Of a stretch of DNA of 64,000 bases, positions 5,338 through 18,216 are shown piece after piece (the first letter of the stretch is position 1; every line of letters begins with the position of its first letter). The stretch lies in assembly GCA_020426345.1 (NCBI GenBank), contig JAGQQE010000001.1:1-64000 (forward strand). Direction: 5' to 3'. This DNA comes from Planctomycetaceae bacterium (lineage in GTDB: Bacteria > Planctomycetota > Planctomycetia > Planctomycetales > Planctomycetaceae). The notes under the pieces were generated by a model. It was given only the letters and a program-made list of their open reading frames with translations, did not search any database and had not been told where the DNA came from. The position numbers and the translations under genes were made by a program.

Positions 5338-7338
5338 TCAGGTGCTGCCTTCACCGGAAAAGTCGCCCCGTGATTGCAGCAGATTCGGTCCGGCGACTCG
5401 CAAATCCCCCTCACGTATGGTCATGCCAACGGAATCAAAATACTGTGCCAGCGGTACGGCGTGTTTTCGGGTCATCGTCCACGCGTCCCGCAACTGAGCG
5501 ATCGTGGCAGGTCCATTCTGTTTCAGGAGCGTCAAGGCAGCAATTCTCGCTTTTTCGATGGCATCCGGAGTGAAGTGCAGCGATTCATCCACACGAATAA
5601 GCAATCCATCTTCCACGGCAATGTCCAGCATCGGGCTGATCACCGAGAGTGGTTCGTTGAGTGAGTCTGCCAGTTCTTTCCGGGTGGGTGGCACGAGTTC
5701 GTGTATTCGGACCTGTTCCAGAATCTGGTTCAGTGCCATGGACTGCTTTTTTGTGAGCTGGTGTTCGCTGCCAGCGACGGCAAGGTTCGGGCCAAGCGGT
5801 ACCAACTTCTTATCGTGGATCAGCAATTCAAATACAGACGCAGTTAATTGCTCGTCCAGCAGATCGTGGCAGGCACTTTGGAGGAGTCTGCGAGAACGGG
5901 ATCGCCCGGGCGGATGGGCCGCGATTTCTTTTCGGACACAGGACAGAATGGTGCGGGAATAGCCTTGCAGTCGTTCTCTGTGGACAAGCAGACCGGGCTC
6001 TTTGGAGCCAATTCTTACCAGTCGACCGATCTTCAGCAATTCCTGCAATGCTGACTCAACGTCTGCCAGCGAACAGCCCGATCGAATCGCTGTTTCACGC
6101 AGATCATCGGGGACCATCGGCAGAAGCGATATGACAGAAGAAACACGTTCGATCGCCGAAAGATTCTGAAGGCCCGTCGCCAGTCGAATCGCCTCACGGT
6201 TTCGCAGTCGTGCTGGACACAAAGGATCCAGAATCAGCCCTCCGCCAATGGTCGCTGCCGGGGCTAACCGCCGAAGAATAAAACGCTGGCCATGGGAAGC
6301 GATGACGGCCTGCTGCAACACGATTTGAGAGATCAGTCCGCCAGAAGAACTTTGCGATCGGACGATTTCGTCCTGGTCTGTGTCAGTTGCGGATACGTCA
6401 TCGGACTTGATCACAATCCGGCAGGGGATTTCTGCCGTGCCAATGTGGATCATCGCGTTGAGCCTGCCCCGCGCGATGAGCGTCTCATTCAATCCATCCA
6501 GTTGGGCCAAAAGCCGCTGTGTTGGACGAAACCAGCCGGGCGTTACCAACTCAACACCGCGTGGAACCTGTTCGGGGCGTATCGACGCGAGATTCACAGC
6601 CGTTCTCTGTCCGGCTTCCGCAGAATCTGCGGCGCGATGATGGGTTTGGACGCTTCGGACACGAACCTCAAGCTGTTCAGGTTGCAATATCAGTCGATCG
6701 CCCGCTTCCACCTGACCGGAAATAGCAGACCCCGTGACGACCGTGCCATGCCCGGCAAGTGAGAACGATCGATCAACCGGTAAACGGAAGACGGGCCATT
6801 GCGCCGTACGTTTTGGGAGCTGCCCGGCAGCGCGAACAATTGCAGACCGTAAATTCTCTATCCCATCGCCTGATTCAGAGGAGACACAAACGATTTCGGC
6901 ATGTTGAAGGAAGGTGTTTCTTGTCAGTTCTGCGACATCCAGCCGGACCAGCTCAATCATGTCTGAATCGACCAGGTCACATTTCGTGATCACAACCAGT
7001 CCGCAGGAAATTCCAAGCCACTGCATGATTTGCAGATGTTCGCGGGTCTGTGGCATCACAGAATCGTCAGCCGCTATAACAAGTACGGCAATGTCGATTC
7101 CCGTAGCGCCGGCCACCATATTGCGCACGAATCTGCGGTGCCCGGGAACGTCAACTACTCCGAAGACAAAATCATCCGTCTGCCAGTTGGCAAATCCCAG
7201 GTCAATCGAAATTCCGCGTCGTTTTTCTTCCGGAAGTCGATGTGTATCAATCCCGGTCAGTGCGGCAACGAGGCGAGTTTTTCCATGATCGATATGACCA
7301 GCCGTCCCCAGAATGACGGGCCGCCTTTCACCACTCAT
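5338..7338 (-). CDS. selB: Selenocysteine-specific translation elongation factor SelB
   Basis: A 666-residue GTPase that delivers selenocysteyl-tRNA to UGA codons followed by a SECIS hairpin. The G1 loop [11 protein letters not shown] (residues 11-21), the RRGISI switch I, the DVPGH G3 motif and the TKCD G4 motif match SelB, and EF-Tu-like domains II and III follow. The C-terminal third (about residues 400-666) has the repeated winged-helix character of the SECIS-binding domain. A selenocysteine tRNA gene starts 273 bases upstream on the opposite strand, which strongly supports the assignment. selA, selD and a selenoprotein gene are not visible in the window. Confidence 0.95.
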   Translation of the reverse strand: MSGERRPVILGTAGHIDHGKTRLVAALTGIDTHRLPEEKRRGISIDLGFANWQTDDFVFGVVDVPGHRRFVRNMVAGATGIDIAVLVIAADDSVMPQTREHLQIMQWLGISCGLVVITKCDLVDSDMIELVRLDVAELTRNTFLQHAEIVCVSSESGDGIENLRSAIVRAAGQLPKRTAQWPVFRLPVDRSFSLAGHGTVVTGSAISGQVEAGDRLILQPEQLEVRVRSVQTHHRAADSAEAGQRTAVNLASIRPEQVPRGVELVTPGWFRPTQRLLAQLDGLNETLIARGRLNAMIHIGTAEIPCRIVIKSDDVSATDTDQDEIVRSQSSSGGLISQIVLQQAVIASHGQRFILRRLAPAATIGGGLILDPLCPARLRNREAIRLATGLQNLSAIERVSSVISLLPMVPDDLRETAIRSGCSLADVESALQELLKIGRLVRIGSKEPGLLVHRERLQGYSRTILSCVRKEIAAHPPGRSRSRRLLQSACHDLLDEQLTASVFELLIHDKKLVPLGPNLAVAGSEHQLTKKQSMALNQILEQVRIHELVPPTRKELADSLNEPLSVISPMLDIAVEDGLLIRVDESLHFTPDAIEKARIAALTLLKQNGPATIAQLRDAWTMTRKHAVPLAQYFDSVGMTIREGDLRVAGPNLLQSRGDFSGEGST

Positions 7339-8670: not shown

Positions 8671-8886
8671 GGGTACACTCCCGGAGGGTTTGGGGTGATA
8701 TGGCCATGTGGACCGTGAATTGAATCTTTGAATCGGTGGGGGAATTCCGATTTCACAACATTTCAGGATGACCGATTGCCTGAGGTACATTCGCTGAGTA
8801 GAGTCGGGGGGTGTGGAAAGCAAAGAGTTTCTACCCCGACAACATTACGACGGGTATCTACACGCACTTGGTTGAGGGGTTCAGGA

Positions 8887-9531
8887 ATGTCTTCACAAGA
8901 TGGCGCTGCTACCACGTCTGGTCGCTCTCTTGATAATGGCCCCGTTACCAGTGCCACTTTGCTGGAACGATTGAAATCGTGGGAAGACACGGCTGCCTGG
9001 AAGACTTTTGTGAGCAGTTACGGCCATTTGCTTGAACGCTGGTCCCGTCGAAAACTCAATAATTCTGCGGATGTCGAAGAGGTGAACCAACAGGTTCTCT
9101 GGGAGCTCGCCCGCAGGTTAACTGTTTTTCACTACGATCCACGGATGTCATTTCGCGGCTGGCTGCGAACACTGCATCAGAGCCGGCTGCTGGATTATCT
9201 GAAACTGGAGAAACGTCGAACCATACGAGAAGCAGGGCTCGCTCAAATCTATTTGCAAAAGCAAGGCACTCATGAGCGTTCAGTTTCCCTCGATACAACA
9301 GATGAAATGCCTGATAAACTATGTGTTTCTGATGAGATGCGAAGTGCCACATTGATATCGGAGCGTGTTCGAGCTCGGGTTAGTCCGCGGACCTGGGCTG
9401 TTTTTCATGACATAGCGATTGAGGGTCAATCGATTTCGGAGACTGCTCAACGCCACTCCATGCGATATGCCTCTGCATTCGCGGCATACTCTCGCGTCTG
9501 CCGGCAATTGCGTCAGGAAGCGGCAAAATGA
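8887..9531 (+). CDS. ECF-type RNA polymerase sigma factor
   Basis: A 214-residue ECF sigma factor that would redirect RNA polymerase to a specific regulon. Region 2 is seen in SADVEEVNQQVLWELARRL followed by the core-binding/melting segment FHYDPRMSFRGWLRTL. Region 4 is the C-terminal HTH, with TWAVFHDIAIEGQSISETA preceding a recognition helix. The ATG at 8887 is preferred to an upstream ATG because the added N-terminus has no sigma-like character. Its stop overlaps the kinase gene by four bases (ATGA), so the two are translationally coupled. This sigma/kinase arrangement is common in planctomycetes and suggests control by the kinase rather than by a classical anti-sigma factor. Confidence 0.9.
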   Translation: MSSQDGAATTSGRSLDNGPVTSATLLERLKSWEDTAAWKTFVSSYGHLLERWSRRKLNNSADVEEVNQQVLWELARRLTVFHYDPRMSFRGWLRTLHQSRLLDYLKLEKRRTIREAGLAQIYLQKQGTHERSVSLDTTDEMPDKLCVSDEMRSATLISERVRARVSPRTWAVFHDIAIEGQSISETAQRHSMRYASAFAAYSRVCRQLRQEAAK

Positions 9532-12014
9532 TGCGAAACGGTTCGCAGCACTGCCCGGACCATTCTGTCCTGCGGAACCTGGGCAACTGCGACTTAGATG
9601 ACGATGGTTCCCAACGGCCTGATGAGCAACTTGAACAACACATTGAATCCTGCGTTCGATGTCAGGAATTCCTGCAGGACCTGGCGTCAGCGGAACGCGA
9701 AACGGTCACCCCACTGCTAAAGGGCGTTGATCGATCGGATGTTGATTTGGACGTAAATCCGCTGCCCGAAATCGAAGGGTTTCGGCTGGAACGTGAACTC
9801 GGGCGTGGAGGTGGTTCGGTCGTCTATCTTGCAGAAGACCTGACGACGTCCAGGCTGATTGCTCTCAAACGTATTCACGTTGACGCGAAGAGCAACGAAG
9901 CCGAAAGGCTCCGATGGCTGGATGAAGTTCGCATTGCGGCAAAGATGGAACATCACAACGTCGTCCGGCTGTATCGCGTGGAAGAAACGCCGGAGTGTTT
10001 TCTTCTGGTTTTCGAGTATGTTGCGGGTGGCACTCTCAGAAGCTGGCTGGATCAACCGGCGACTCCTCTGCAGATCGCTCAGTTTATCAGTGTCATTGCC
10101 AGTGCCGTCGATCAGATCCACAAGCGAGGCGTGCTTCACCTTGACCTGAAGCCTTCGAATATCCTGATCGATGTTTCAGCGGGAACGACGTGGGACAGTA
10201 TCGTTCCCAAGGTAGCGGACTTTGGAATTGCAAGTTCGCGTCAGTCGCAGTCGACAGATGCTGGCAGGGAACGCCAGATTCGAGGCACACCAAGTTACAT
10301 GGCTCCGGAGCAGGTCCTTGGTGACCCGACTTTGTTATCACCGGCCACTGACGTCTATGGGCTCGGTGGAATCCTGTTTACTTTACTCACGGGGGTTCCT
10401 CCATTTTGCGGAGAAACCTCCACCGGTGTTGTCCGGCAGGTGATGGATGCCGAGATTGATTGGGGAACTTCCGGCTTGGACAAGATACCGGAAGGCCTGC
10501 GGCAGATGACAGAACGGTGTCTTGCAAAGCATCCTGAAGACCGATACGAATCCTGTGCTCATCTGGCTTTGGAACTGCAGTCGTGGATTGTCAGGCAGCA
10601 CTCGGCGGGTACTCACGGCATCCGTTTTCTGATTCCCGCCATCCTCCTTGTGTTGGTCCTGGTTCTTGCGTTGAACCGGCCTGGCTCTTCCCCGAACGGG
10701 TTGAAATCGTCTGCGGAACCTTCAAACGCAGTGGTGTCGGGAGCTTCGATACCACTGACTATTAACGAATGGGCGGACGAGATTACTCGGGATGCTGCCG
10801 CTTTCGGCCCGGACCGTGCGGCGAGACTACTGGAATCAACTCGTTTTCATAATCGTCGTGTGTTGTCTGAATCCCCGGTTTCGTTCGAAGATTGCCTGAG
10901 ATATGGCACTTTGGAATTGCGAGCGGCCGAACGTTTCACGGAAGGCTTAAATAAGACGATGCACGCGGTTGCAGTGGACTTACTGGATACATCGGTTGAG
11001 CTGCTGAAGAAGGCGAACGAACTTCAGCCGGACGATCAGGTCGCACTCACTGAGTTAATTGCTGCGAGATTCATGTATGGCTATCTGCGCGACACCAGTG
11101 ATGTCATTGTCCCTCAGAGACGCTTCGAACAGTTTCGTCGTAATGGAAGAATTCTTGTCGACACTGCTCCCCTGCTGAATCGACTCAGGGACAACAGATC
11201 GAGGGTTTTCTGGGCGGTGTCTTTTATTGACTACTTTCGTTCTCTGACGTGGGATTTTCGCTGGAGCCGTGAATCGACAGAAGCAGCCATGTTCGAGACA
11301 TACGAACTCGAATTCTGGGACCAGCTTTCCGATGCCAGCGAAAGCCCCGATCTTTGGATTCGTCATGGCCTGTTTCCATCGCGCGTTCAGGACAATGACT
11401 GGCCTGAATTGTCTTTGGGAGACTGGGTGCTTGAGGAAAATCAACTCAATCTGGATCAGGAGAAACTGTTCGCATTTATGGGCGATCAGTTTTGGTGCAT
11501 GGAATCATCTGTCGGCACAGAGCATTCAGGCGGCAAATTTCTGGACGCTTTGTCGGCCTCCAGCAGCCAGATCATCCTGGACAACACATTGCAGTTTATG
11601 GAGCAACAACAGATCCGGGATCAGGATCTGCTGCTGGATGTCCTTCACGGCCGGCTGACCAGCTCGATCACAGGGATCAGTACGTACCTCCGTCGGCAGG
11701 GATTACTGGACGACGCAGAAGTAATTCAGAAAGCGTACCTGTCTCTTGCCGAAGAGTGTGTCTCTCGATTTCCTCGCAATGAACACAGTTATCTCTGCGT
11801 TTGCGAAGCGCATCTGCAGGCATGGAAGAATGCATTACGACGTAATGATGATGAGTCAGCGATTATCGCTCTGAAGGCGTCACTTTCCGCCGCTGAAAAA
11901 GCTCTGGAAGTGGCTCCTGATTCTCCCCGGGCGCGATTTCAGGTTGCGGATCGAATTAAGCGGCTGACGCGTTTCCAAAAACAGGATGACCACAGCCAGG
12001 CACGAACCAAATGA
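9528..12014 (+). CDS. Membrane Ser/Thr protein kinase with zinc-finger-like N-terminus
   Basis: An 828-residue Hanks-type kinase. An HIESCVRCQEF motif (His38, Cys42, Cys45) resembles the zf-HC2 anti-sigma zinc site. The kinase domain spans about residues 85-355: Gly-rich loop GRGGGSVVY, catalytic Lys114, HLDLKPSN (204-211, HLD in place of HRD), DFG (231-233) and GTPSYMAPEQ. A single membrane helix (AILLVLVLVLAL, about 370-382) leads to a roughly 440-residue C-terminal, mostly helical region without a named domain but with TPR-like character near the end. It starts inside the stop of the ECF sigma gene. The layout suggests sensing outside and sigma sequestration or phosphorylation inside. Confidence 0.93.
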   Translation: MMRNGSQHCPDHSVLRNLGNCDLDDDGSQRPDEQLEQHIESCVRCQEFLQDLASAERETVTPLLKGVDRSDVDLDVNPLPEIEGFRLERELGRGGGSVVYLAEDLTTSRLIALKRIHVDAKSNEAERLRWLDEVRIAAKMEHHNVVRLYRVEETPECFLLVFEYVAGGTLRSWLDQPATPLQIAQFISVIASAVDQIHKRGVLHLDLKPSNILIDVSAGTTWDSIVPKVADFGIASSRQSQSTDAGRERQIRGTPSYMAPEQVLGDPTLLSPATDVYGLGGILFTLLTGVPPFCGETSTGVVRQVMDAEIDWGTSGLDKIPEGLRQMTERCLAKHPEDRYESCAHLALELQSWIVRQHSAGTHGIRFLIPAILLVLVLVLALNRPGSSPNGLKSSAEPSNAVVSGASIPLTINEWADEITRDAAAFGPDRAARLLESTRFHNRRVLSESPVSFEDCLRYGTLELRAAERFTEGLNKTMHAVAVDLLDTSVELLKKANELQPDDQVALTELIAARFMYGYLRDTSDVIVPQRRFEQFRRNGRILVDTAPLLNRLRDNRSRVFWAVSFIDYFRSLTWDFRWSRESTEAAMFETYELEFWDQLSDASESPDLWIRHGLFPSRVQDNDWPELSLGDWVLEENQLNLDQEKLFAFMGDQFWCMESSVGTEHSGGKFLDALSASSSQIILDNTLQFMEQQQIRDQDLLLDVLHGRLTSSITGISTYLRRQGLLDDAEVIQKAYLSLAEECVSRFPRNEHSYLCVCEAHLQAWKNALRRNDDESAIIALKASLSAAEKALEVAPDSPRARFQVADRIKRLTRFQKQDDHSQARTK

Positions 12015-16119: not shown

Positions 16120-16302
16120 GCCAGGTCGACAGTCGCGCGGGGGTGTTTCTGTGAGAGCGGTTTCTGTGATGAACGGATCAAACGACGGAATCTCATGATT
16201 CCGCTTGCATTTCCCAGATTCCACCCGCTGCAATGCTGTGGATGGTTCGCGTGAGTCTGATTTGGTTTTGGCGATTCCTGCCGGGATGTGGGGGCACCCA
16301 GG

Positions 16303-18216
16303 ATGGACTACCGATATTCCAGTCGTTCGGGTTCGCTGCAACAGAGCGACTGGTCCGAGGACCAGGTGCTGGATACGCTGAATGAAGCGTCTCCAGGGAA
16401 TACCTCCACGAACGTAGCCGATATCGCCGGACCTGGCGGCTCTGTTTCCCGGCGGATTCGACCGTCCTTCCCGGATTCCGAAATCAGACGTCGACTCCGG
16501 ACTGTGCCGAAGTCACTTGTATGTGTGTTACCGGCATCCGTTCTCTGGGAACACCGCGTCGTTCCGATCATTTTCGATCAGATTGAAGATACGTACTACA
16601 TCGTCGCGCAGGATGCGGATGACATTGCGCTGATGGACAAATTGTCTTTCCTGCTGGCAAAGAACGTCGTTCTGGTTCCGGGGCATGCGGATCATATCGT
16701 TCAGACGCTTGTGCGGCTGAATCTCAAATCTGCGTCGGAATCTGCGGACTCGATGTTGAGTGAATTCACCGATACGTCGGTGTCCTCCATGTCTGCAGAC
16801 GATGACGAGTTCCTTTCCGATGTCGCGCCGGCTTCGGAACGGGTGCGGCATTCAGCGAAAAGATCGAGGGCGGAATTCAGACGAGGGCCGAATCCCGAGT
16901 CGAATGTCCGTGGCTATGATCTTTATTCATCTAATTCCACAGTGAGAAAGACCAGGGGGCGGGGTATGCTTTACTATACGATCGACGATGGTGAACGTGT
17001 TCTGCGCACATCTCTCAGCGGAGAACGCGACCTGCTTGTCGGCCCTCGACGAGTCTGGATCGGTCGCAATCGCTTCGAAGCCCTGACACACCATGTGGCC
17101 CATCCCGGGCAGTTTCTGATTGTTCGTTTTCTTGATGGATCGCAGCAGCATCTTCCGGGTCCTGCTGAGCTCTGGGAAGACCCCCGAGTTCACGAGTCGA
17201 TCTCGACAGAAGATTGCCTGCAACTGGCGGCGCGGGAAGCGGTCGTTGTCTATTCGCGTAAGTCCGAAATGCCCTCGGAAACGGATCGTCGACTTGTGCA
17301 TGGACCAGCAATGTTCACACCACAGCCTGGTGAATGGCTGCATAGTTTTTCCTGGCATGCTTCTCCCGGCGGGCATCTTGGGGTTCAGAAGATTCCCAAC
17401 TCCCTCCGTTTTCAGAAACTGTGGCTGATGCCGGATCAGATGTATCATGACGTTCCTGATGTACGAACGTCTGACAACGCCGTGATTGTGATTCGATTGA
17501 TGGTCTTCTTTGAACTGATTCATATCGAACGAATGCTGGATTCGACGCGGGATCCCATCGGGGATTTTGTGAATGCTGCCACTGCTGACGTTGTTGAGTT
17601 CACTGGCAGGCTTTCGTTCGAAGAATTCAAGCAGGCGACCGGTCGTTTGAACGATCCTGGCACTTATCGAACTCTACTCTCCCGGGCTGAGCAGATCGGC
17701 TATCGTGTTAACAACGTGGTATATCGGGGGTATGGGGCAGCAGAATCCCTGCAAAAGATGCACGATCAGGCGATTGAAGCACGCACTCGGTTGCAGCTGG
17801 ATCGTGCAACGGAGGAACAAACTCAGGATCTTGAAAACTATCGCCTTCAGAGTCAGCTCAGCCGAGCCAGTATGCGTCGTCAGGAGCAATCCTCCGAGGT
17901 ACAGCATGCGATTGAAATGGATCAGAAAAAGCGAGTTGCTGATTTGGAGCACGCAGAACGACAACGCGAATTTGAGCGACGAAAACGTGAAGCGACCGAT
18001 CAGCAGAGGGAAGCGGCCATGCAGCGAGTCAACCAGATTCAGCAGCAACATCTTGTCTCGCTGAAGCAAATGGGGGTCGACCTGACAGCTTACCTCACGC
18101 AGAACCGTGCGGACCAGGTCATCGAATTGCGTGGTCAGGCCACTTCGCCGCAGCTGCACCTTTCATCCAGAAGCACAGAGCAATCGTCGCCAAATGCAGA
18201 GTCAGAGGCCGATTAA
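16303..18216 (+). CDS. MshEN-like domain fused to a vault/SPFH-like protein
   Basis: A 637-residue soluble protein with no signal peptide or membrane helix. Residues about 60-140 look like the MshEN/GspE N-terminal domain, a c-di-GMP-binding fold in some ATPases. A Ser/Asp-rich linker runs to about 220. Residues 220-480 are beta-rich with three GP-containing repeats (LLVGPRRVWIG, HLPGPAELWEDP, LVHGPAMFTPQPGEW), then an SPFH-like core resembling the major vault protein shoulder (RFQKLWLMPDQMYHDV, DPIGDFVNAATADVVEF). Residues about 485-600 form a long charged coiled coil, the position of the vault cap helix. ATG 16303 is preferred to GTG 16288. The vault resemblance is inference; the SPFH-plus-coiled-coil plan is clearer. 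Confidence 0.7.
   Translation: MDYRYSSRSGSLQQSDWSEDQVLDTLNEASPGNTSTNVADIAGPGGSVSRRIRPSFPDSEIRRRLRTVPKSLVCVLPASVLWEHRVVPIIFDQIEDTYYIVAQDADDIALMDKLSFLLAKNVVLVPGHADHIVQTLVRLNLKSASESADSMLSEFTDTSVSSMSADDDEFLSDVAPASERVRHSAKRSRAEFRRGPNPESNVRGYDLYSSNSTVRKTRGRGMLYYTIDDGERVLRTSLSGERDLLVGPRRVWIGRNRFEALTHHVAHPGQFLIVRFLDGSQQHLPGPAELWEDPRVHESISTEDCLQLAAREAVVVYSRKSEMPSETDRRLVHGPAMFTPQPGEWLHSFSWHASPGGHLGVQKIPNSLRFQKLWLMPDQMYHDVPDVRTSDNAVIVIRLMVFFELIHIERMLDSTRDPIGDFVNAATADVVEFTGRLSFEEFKQATGRLNDPGTYRTLLSRAEQIGYRVNNVVYRGYGAAESLQKMHDQAIEARTRLQLDRATEEQTQDLENYRLQSQLSRASMRRQEQSSEVQHAIEMDQKKRVADLEHAERQREFERRKREATDQQREAAMQRVNQIQQQHLVSLKQMGVDLTAYLTQNRADQVIELRGQATSPQLHLSSRSTEQSSPNAESEAD

Follow-up and report, generated by a model that had tools for sequence, protein, structure and literature searches.

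Does a planctomycete encode a protein built on the plan of major vault protein (MVP), the subunit of vaults, which are regarded as eukaryotic particles that prokaryotes lack (PMC9778704, PMC11855390)? The question is raised by an open reading frame (ORF) in the first 64,000 nucleotides of contig JAGQQE010000001.1 of a Planctomycetaceae bacterium (the window, meaning that whole stretch). The source genome is a 6.8-Mb planctomycete assembly in 791 contigs that is 95% complete. The ORF lies on the plus strand at 16303-18213, encodes 637 amino acids and is closed by a stop codon at 18214-18216. An in-frame GTG at 16288 would add five residues, but the ATG at 16303 is preferred because relatives align there; the closest relative, from a Bythopirellula sp., begins with the same MDYRY. 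Counts of family members refer to a set of 43, except that conserved columns at the N-terminal tip were counted in 38 aligned members. Sequence comparison gave family identities of about 41 to 54% across phyla, and it is for this reason that the ORF and its family are taken to be real rather than a product of chance. One member lies in a 902-amino-acid open frame (L055:4495-7200, plus strand), far longer than the others, which represents either GC-rich read-through or a real N-terminal extension. The window protein is likely a soluble cytoplasmic cage protein of the vault/SPFH type, forming a half-cage that carries docking heads on its rim.

The body of the protein (residues 222-620) was predicted by AlphaFold2 to consist of three beta-repeats, each containing a GP pair, followed by an SPFH shoulder and then by a cap helix of 109 residues. 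Repeat a spans residues 222-268 (16966..17106, GP at 247-248), repeat b residues 269-309 (17107..17229, GP at 286-287) and repeat c residues 310-362 (17230..17388, GP at 334-335), as placed by the beta strands of the model and by the repeat profile described below. The SPFH/MVP-shoulder domain (residues 363-480; 17389..17742) was delimited from model strands and helices together with Foldseek, and the cap helix or coiled coil (residues 481-589; 17743..18069) is unbroken in the model. The predicted local distance difference test score (pLDDT) was about 90 to 96 over most of residues 222-480, with a dip at about 350-370. When the model was compared with the PDB by Foldseek, the top 11 matches were all MVP (E values of 7.6e-15 to 4.1e-11, 442 to 514 alignment columns, 16 to 20% identity), followed by flotillin, erlin, stomatin and HflK/C at E values of 1e-7 to 1e-5; the template modeling score (TM-score) to the stomatin SPFH domain was 0.74 to 0.78 by target length. 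An MVP-like architecture is therefore predicted with high confidence. A hydrophobicity scan revealed no membrane helix in any of the 43 members, and the sole hydrophobic peak of the window protein (KD19 of 1.69, residues 394-412) is an SPFH beta-strand. The GP-containing beta-repeats, the SPFH- or vault-shoulder-like core, the long cap-helix-like coiled coil and the lack of a membrane helix that a preliminary description of this DNA had proposed were thus all borne out, the core by matches of residues 220-600 to both MVP and SPFH structures.

True MVPs of the same phylum provided a direct comparison for the repeats. In a survey of 294 Planctomycetota genomes, in which ORFs above the cut-off of PF11978 (MVP_shoulder) were counted, six genomes contained such an ORF (L076 to L081, 69.9 to 107.4 bits). 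The first of these (L076:952-3195, minus strand, 748 amino acids) matched a solved MVP at an E value of 6.7e-33, and the other five have frames of 815 to 873 amino acids, mostly cut by the end of the locus, with long repeat arrays. True MVP is thus present in bacterial assemblies, contamination of metagenome-assembled genomes being a possible source; the window's own genome had no PF11978 match at an E value of 0.001. A hidden Markov model (HMM) trained on the family's GP repeats recognized the GP repeats of each of the six planctomycete MVPs (E values of 1.4e-11 to 4e-4), and all 36 decoys, made by shuffling or reversal, had E values of 0.68 or higher. When 4,685 ORFs were ranked with it, the family itself came first and was followed directly by five of these MVPs; since one background ORF reached 5.6e-4 and L076 fell to 0.046, the signal is clear yet modest. 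Alignment of the family with planctomycete MVP by hhalign gave, for the repeats alone, an E value of 2.8e-5 and a probability of 74. Moreover, two short-form relatives (L090:6983-8467 and L091:6840-8360, both on the plus strand) possess five repeats that arose through tandem duplication of an 88-amino-acid two-repeat unit corresponding to repeats b and c, with duplication scores of 291 and 333, respectively, against maxima of 69 and 54 in 200 shuffles. The five-repeat model of L091 matched MVP at an E value of 2.3e-18 and, separately, MVP R1-R7 crystals that lack the SPFH domain at 4e-8. Together, the repeat HMM, the tandem duplication and the R1-R7 match indicate that the predicted repeats behave as vault wall units.

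The N-terminal head is of a different kind and appears to derive from a motor ATPase of type II secretion or type IV pili. Residues 58-140 (16474..16722) were modeled as helices and three strands with pLDDT values above 90, an arrangement described for ND1/MshEN_C (PMC8389850). PF05157 (MshEN), whose cut-off is 23.1 bits, matched residues 69-140 of the window protein with 28.9 bits (E value of 1.1e-6) and 26 of the 43 members at an E value of 1 or better, and a profile of the 43 relatives retrieved PilB of solved structure at 3.4e-9. The head is ND1/MshEN_C, the C-terminal half of MshEN; the MshEN_N (ND0) half is absent, so that the MshEN-type N terminus of the preliminary description holds for this half only. 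Upstream lies a disordered linker (residues 16-57; 16348..16473), with pLDDT below 50 over residues 1-51. Downstream, the linker motif ESADSMLSEFTDTSV (residues 146-160; 16738..16782), which has the family form SVDSMLxEFTDTAIDF and is common to planctomycete GspE/PilB ATPases, is followed by a second disordered linker (residues 161-221; 16783..16965; pLDDT below 50 at 155-212). A secretion ATPase of the same genome (L100, with T2SSE and MshEN domains) was 31% identical by blastp over residues 68-160 (E value of 8e-10), a stretch that extends past ND1 into the linker and includes ESVDSMxxEFT-T; the relative L011 matched the same ATPase at 42% identity (E value of 4e-27). The same genome also encodes a 1,158-amino-acid protein (L108:849-4322, plus strand, contig C187) that combines VIT (vault inter-alpha-trypsin), VWA, MshEN and partial T2SSE domains, and its MshEN carries the same SVDSM-EFT linker as the vault-like protein. 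A tree built from the body placed the 26 members that carry MshEN, all of them from Planctomycetota, on one side of a single branch (support 87/66, recovered in 86% of bootstrap trees). A single gain of the ND1 fusion is the simplest reading of this tree but is not firmly supported.

GspE/EpsE likewise carry ND1 without ND0, and ND1 there binds GspL/EpsL; in PilB of X. citri, the interface with PilZ is formed largely by ND1 (PMC8389850). Because ND1 is a protein-docking module with known partners of the GspL/PilM or PilZ type, the cage would be expected to meet a protein partner through its rim. The window's genome has two PilM-like genes as candidate ND1 partners, and docking of the head to a partner of the PilM/GspL type is a conceivable but rather doubtful proposal.

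Both ends of the protein are conserved as well. The N-terminal tip peptide MDYRYSSRSGSLQQS (residues 1-15; 16303..16347) is predicted to be disordered and carries the short conserved motif Y-x-[YLI]-[LI]-x-[KR]-x-G-[AS]-[LV]-[QHN]-[ED], in which the glycine is present in 37/38 and the alanine or serine in 35/38 aligned members; column counts were used here in place of the regular expression, which also matches 19% of shuffled sequences. Myxococcota members keep the motif even though they have no ND1, and the short Pirellulaceae form lacks it. C-terminal to the cap helix, DLTxxLTQxRADxVIELRG...PHLHLD is almost invariant in the family: L594, L598, D604 and H619 are invariant, and D593, T595, I607, E608 and R610 are found in 39 to 42 of the 43 members. 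The cap beta-barrel strands of MVP come after the cap helix (PMC7618893), and residues 590-622 (MGVDLTAYLTQNRADQVIELRG...PQLHLSS; 18070..18168) were assigned as a putative cap strand or hairpin because they occupy the same place. The variable C-terminal tail (residues 623-637 with the stop codon; 18169..18216) shows low conservation and low pLDDT.

Of 398 genomes sampled from the class within Planctomycetota, 37 contained the body; its occurrence in Myxococcota was patchy (3 of 141 genomes of a sample), and further loci were labeled Deltaproteobacteria, Brocadiia and Proteobacteria. The clades of the family are deep and extend over both Planctomycetota and Myxococcota, with many invariant residues, and the more divergent members (Myxococcota and the short Pirellulaceae form) retain the body in the absence of ND1. 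Searches of plasmids, phages and viral contigs returned no family match, nor did PHROG or PADLOC match the family; a mobile or viral origin was therefore rejected, the viral fold matches being ordinary Band 7/SPFH proteins. Gene neighborhoods were clustered for 42 loci plus the window and then for another 11 loci, most of which carry the short form. Synteny was observed only at the level of lineages, with PALP upstream in Gemmata relatives and an RNA ligase in Nannocystis. The latter (PF09414), at L053:7448-8569 (minus strand) and at other Nannocystis loci, is convergent with the vault-like gene and immediately downstream of it. DUF1559 prepilin-like neighbors occurred at five loci and were left uncounted because this family is very abundant in planctomycetes. 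In the window, the neighbors are an acetylesterase-like gene, a peptidase-like gene and genes for a DUF1559 protein and a protein resembling squalene cyclase. That the gene stands alone is compatible with self-assembly of its product but points to no function.

The head gave rise to two other explanations. The preliminary description had suggested a nucleotide-sensing head, i.e., a vault-like particle gated by cyclic di-GMP (c-di-GMP), and MshEN above its cut-off would fit such a role, as many MshEN proteins bind c-di-GMP. That binding, however, requires two 24-residue motifs in the MshEN_N half (PMC5013675), the half that is missing here. The relaxed form of the motif published in that study was found in none of the 43 members, and residues 1-51 of the window protein are predicted to be disordered. 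Two MshEN proteins of the same genome served as positive controls: in L098 the pattern detected a tandem pair of motifs separated by the expected 5 residues, and in L099 it detected a single motif. Since the controls were positive and the family was not, the head is regarded as an ND1 docking domain and not a c-di-GMP sensor, and gating by c-di-GMP is very improbable. Alternatively, the protein might be an accessory of type II/IV secretion whose coiled-coil SPFH ring links it to the ATPase or platform as an adaptor, in which case the cage as such would not matter. This explanation, which we regard as unlikely, would account for the resemblance of ND1 and its linker to the secretion ATPase of the same genome and for the PilM-like candidates, but the divergent members dispense with ND1 and keep the body; moreover, no secretion genes adjoin the vault-like gene in the window, and none recurs as a conserved neighbor.

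The body could also be read in other ways. A membrane scaffold of the flotillin/prohibitin kind, held at the inner membrane through amphipathic or protein contacts and with the GP repeats as an extended beta region rather than a vault wall, is somewhat more plausible than a secretion accessory. In its favor, stomatin, flotillin, erlin and HflK/C are matched by the SPFH domain, and half cages bound to a membrane account for nearly all SPFH complexes (PMC13100048). Nevertheless, not one member has a membrane helix, the E value for MVP is about 7 orders of magnitude better than for any membrane SPFH protein, and the repeats match those of MVP by HMM, duplicate as a unit and, in the five-repeat model, match repeat-only MVP crystals; a scaffold of this kind is therefore improbable. 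The least probable explanation of all is that a bacterium took up an MVP gene from a eukaryote and that this gene then degraded. The fold is MVP-like and full-length MVP genes exist in some planctomycete genomes, but the deep clades, invariant residues and retained identity of the family argue against decay, and the family is distinct from the true MVPs of its phylum; the window's own genome has no PF11978 match. Several observations nonetheless weigh against a vault-type cage. The structure is known from a predicted monomer only, and its global TM-scores to MVP are low (0.25 to 0.39 by query length), probably because the long helix and the linkers are placed freely in such a model. PF11978 did not match the window protein and matched only 5 of the 43 members weakly (best E value of 0.017), and PF01145 (Band_7) likewise failed to match it and matched 4 of the 43 weakly (best E value of 0.0086); by sequence, the window protein is thus outside both Pfam families. 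The comparison of its shoulder with planctomycete MVP shoulders by hhalign was not significant. No neighbor was conserved across phyla among the clustered loci, which lends no support to any partner or function, and the idea of docking to PilM/GspL rests solely on homology of the module.

With a vault-type cage as the favored reading, the following mechanism may be proposed. We infer that copies of the protein pack laterally through the SPFH shoulder and cap helix, and assembly into a ring or dome is likely. At the C-terminal end, the conserved VIELRG strands would come together in a beta-barrel that closes the dome, and beneath the shoulder the three GP repeats would make up a short wall. The free N-terminal rim would then bear many ND1 docking domains and tip peptides on flexible linkers, through which the cage might be recruited to, or itself recruit, a protein partner, plausibly at an inner-membrane secretion or pilus platform. 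Either two domes would meet rim to rim, as in vaults, or a single dome would sit on a membrane partner via ND1. It is also possible, although this is a tentative extension, that planctomycetes and some myxobacteria build true vault-type particles from one short protein, with a wall array that grows by tandem duplication (three repeats, five and, in MVP, nine), so that the family would represent a short form of the vault architecture, and that the rim in Planctomycetota gained docking heads from secretion motors that tether or load the cage at the inner membrane.

Elsewhere in the window, a SelB-like elongation factor with GTP_EFTU and SelB winged-helix domains (5338-7338, minus strand) suggests the use of selenocysteine in this planctomycete. 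At 8728-12014 (plus strand), an ORF that matches sigma-70 region 2 shares 4 bases with the start of a gene for a Ser/Thr kinase whose C-terminal part is long.

No description of the family was found in the open-access literature searched, most subscription literature being beyond reach, and the family is apparently undescribed. A prokaryotic origin of vaults has been called unresolved, and putative bacterial MVP homologues have already been mentioned (PMC7916137). Conserved MVP-type repeats, a shoulder and a cap helix in a short soluble bacterial protein are of interest because vaults are usually said to be missing from bacteria, and members that differ by repeat duplication offer a small, testable system for the assembly and evolution of the vault wall and possibly for vault function; the fused ND1 suggests a class of partner to seek. 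Among known systems, MVP (PF11978, with the Vault repeats PF17795/PF17796), whose domains have been described as vault-specific (PMC13100048), is by far the best structural match. The two have in common GP beta-repeats, an SPFH shoulder, a long cap helix and a conserved C-terminal strand (putative in the bacterial family), in that order, and both are soluble. The shoulder pocket of human vaults is reported to bind adenine nucleotides (NAD+, ADP and ADP-ribose) (PMC13174449). MVP differs in having nine repeats (R1-R9) compared to three in the window protein and five in L090 and L091, and in exceeding Pfam cut-offs that the window protein does not reach. MVP assembles into 39-mer half shells and 78-mer vaults; the bacterial family is known here from sequence and predicted models and additionally bears the conserved tip peptide and, in Planctomycetota, ND1. 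The MVPs of planctomycetes, found in the same phylum and linked to the family by GP repeats that its HMM matches, have longer repeat arrays and a shoulder matched by PF11978, and they constitute a separate family. The SPFH proteins (stomatin, prohibitin, flotillin, erlin and HflK/C; Band_7, PF01145) have the same SPFH fold followed by a long helix, but the window protein has no membrane anchor, adds MVP-type wall repeats and falls short of the Band_7 cut-off. Finally, the head resembles the MshEN/ND1 domains of PilB, GspE and MshE in its PF05157 match above cut-off, its alpha/beta ND1 layout and the SVDSM-EFT linker of planctomycete GspE/PilB, and it differs from them in being carried on a predicted vault-like body without ND0/MshEN_N, c-di-GMP motifs or an ATPase domain.
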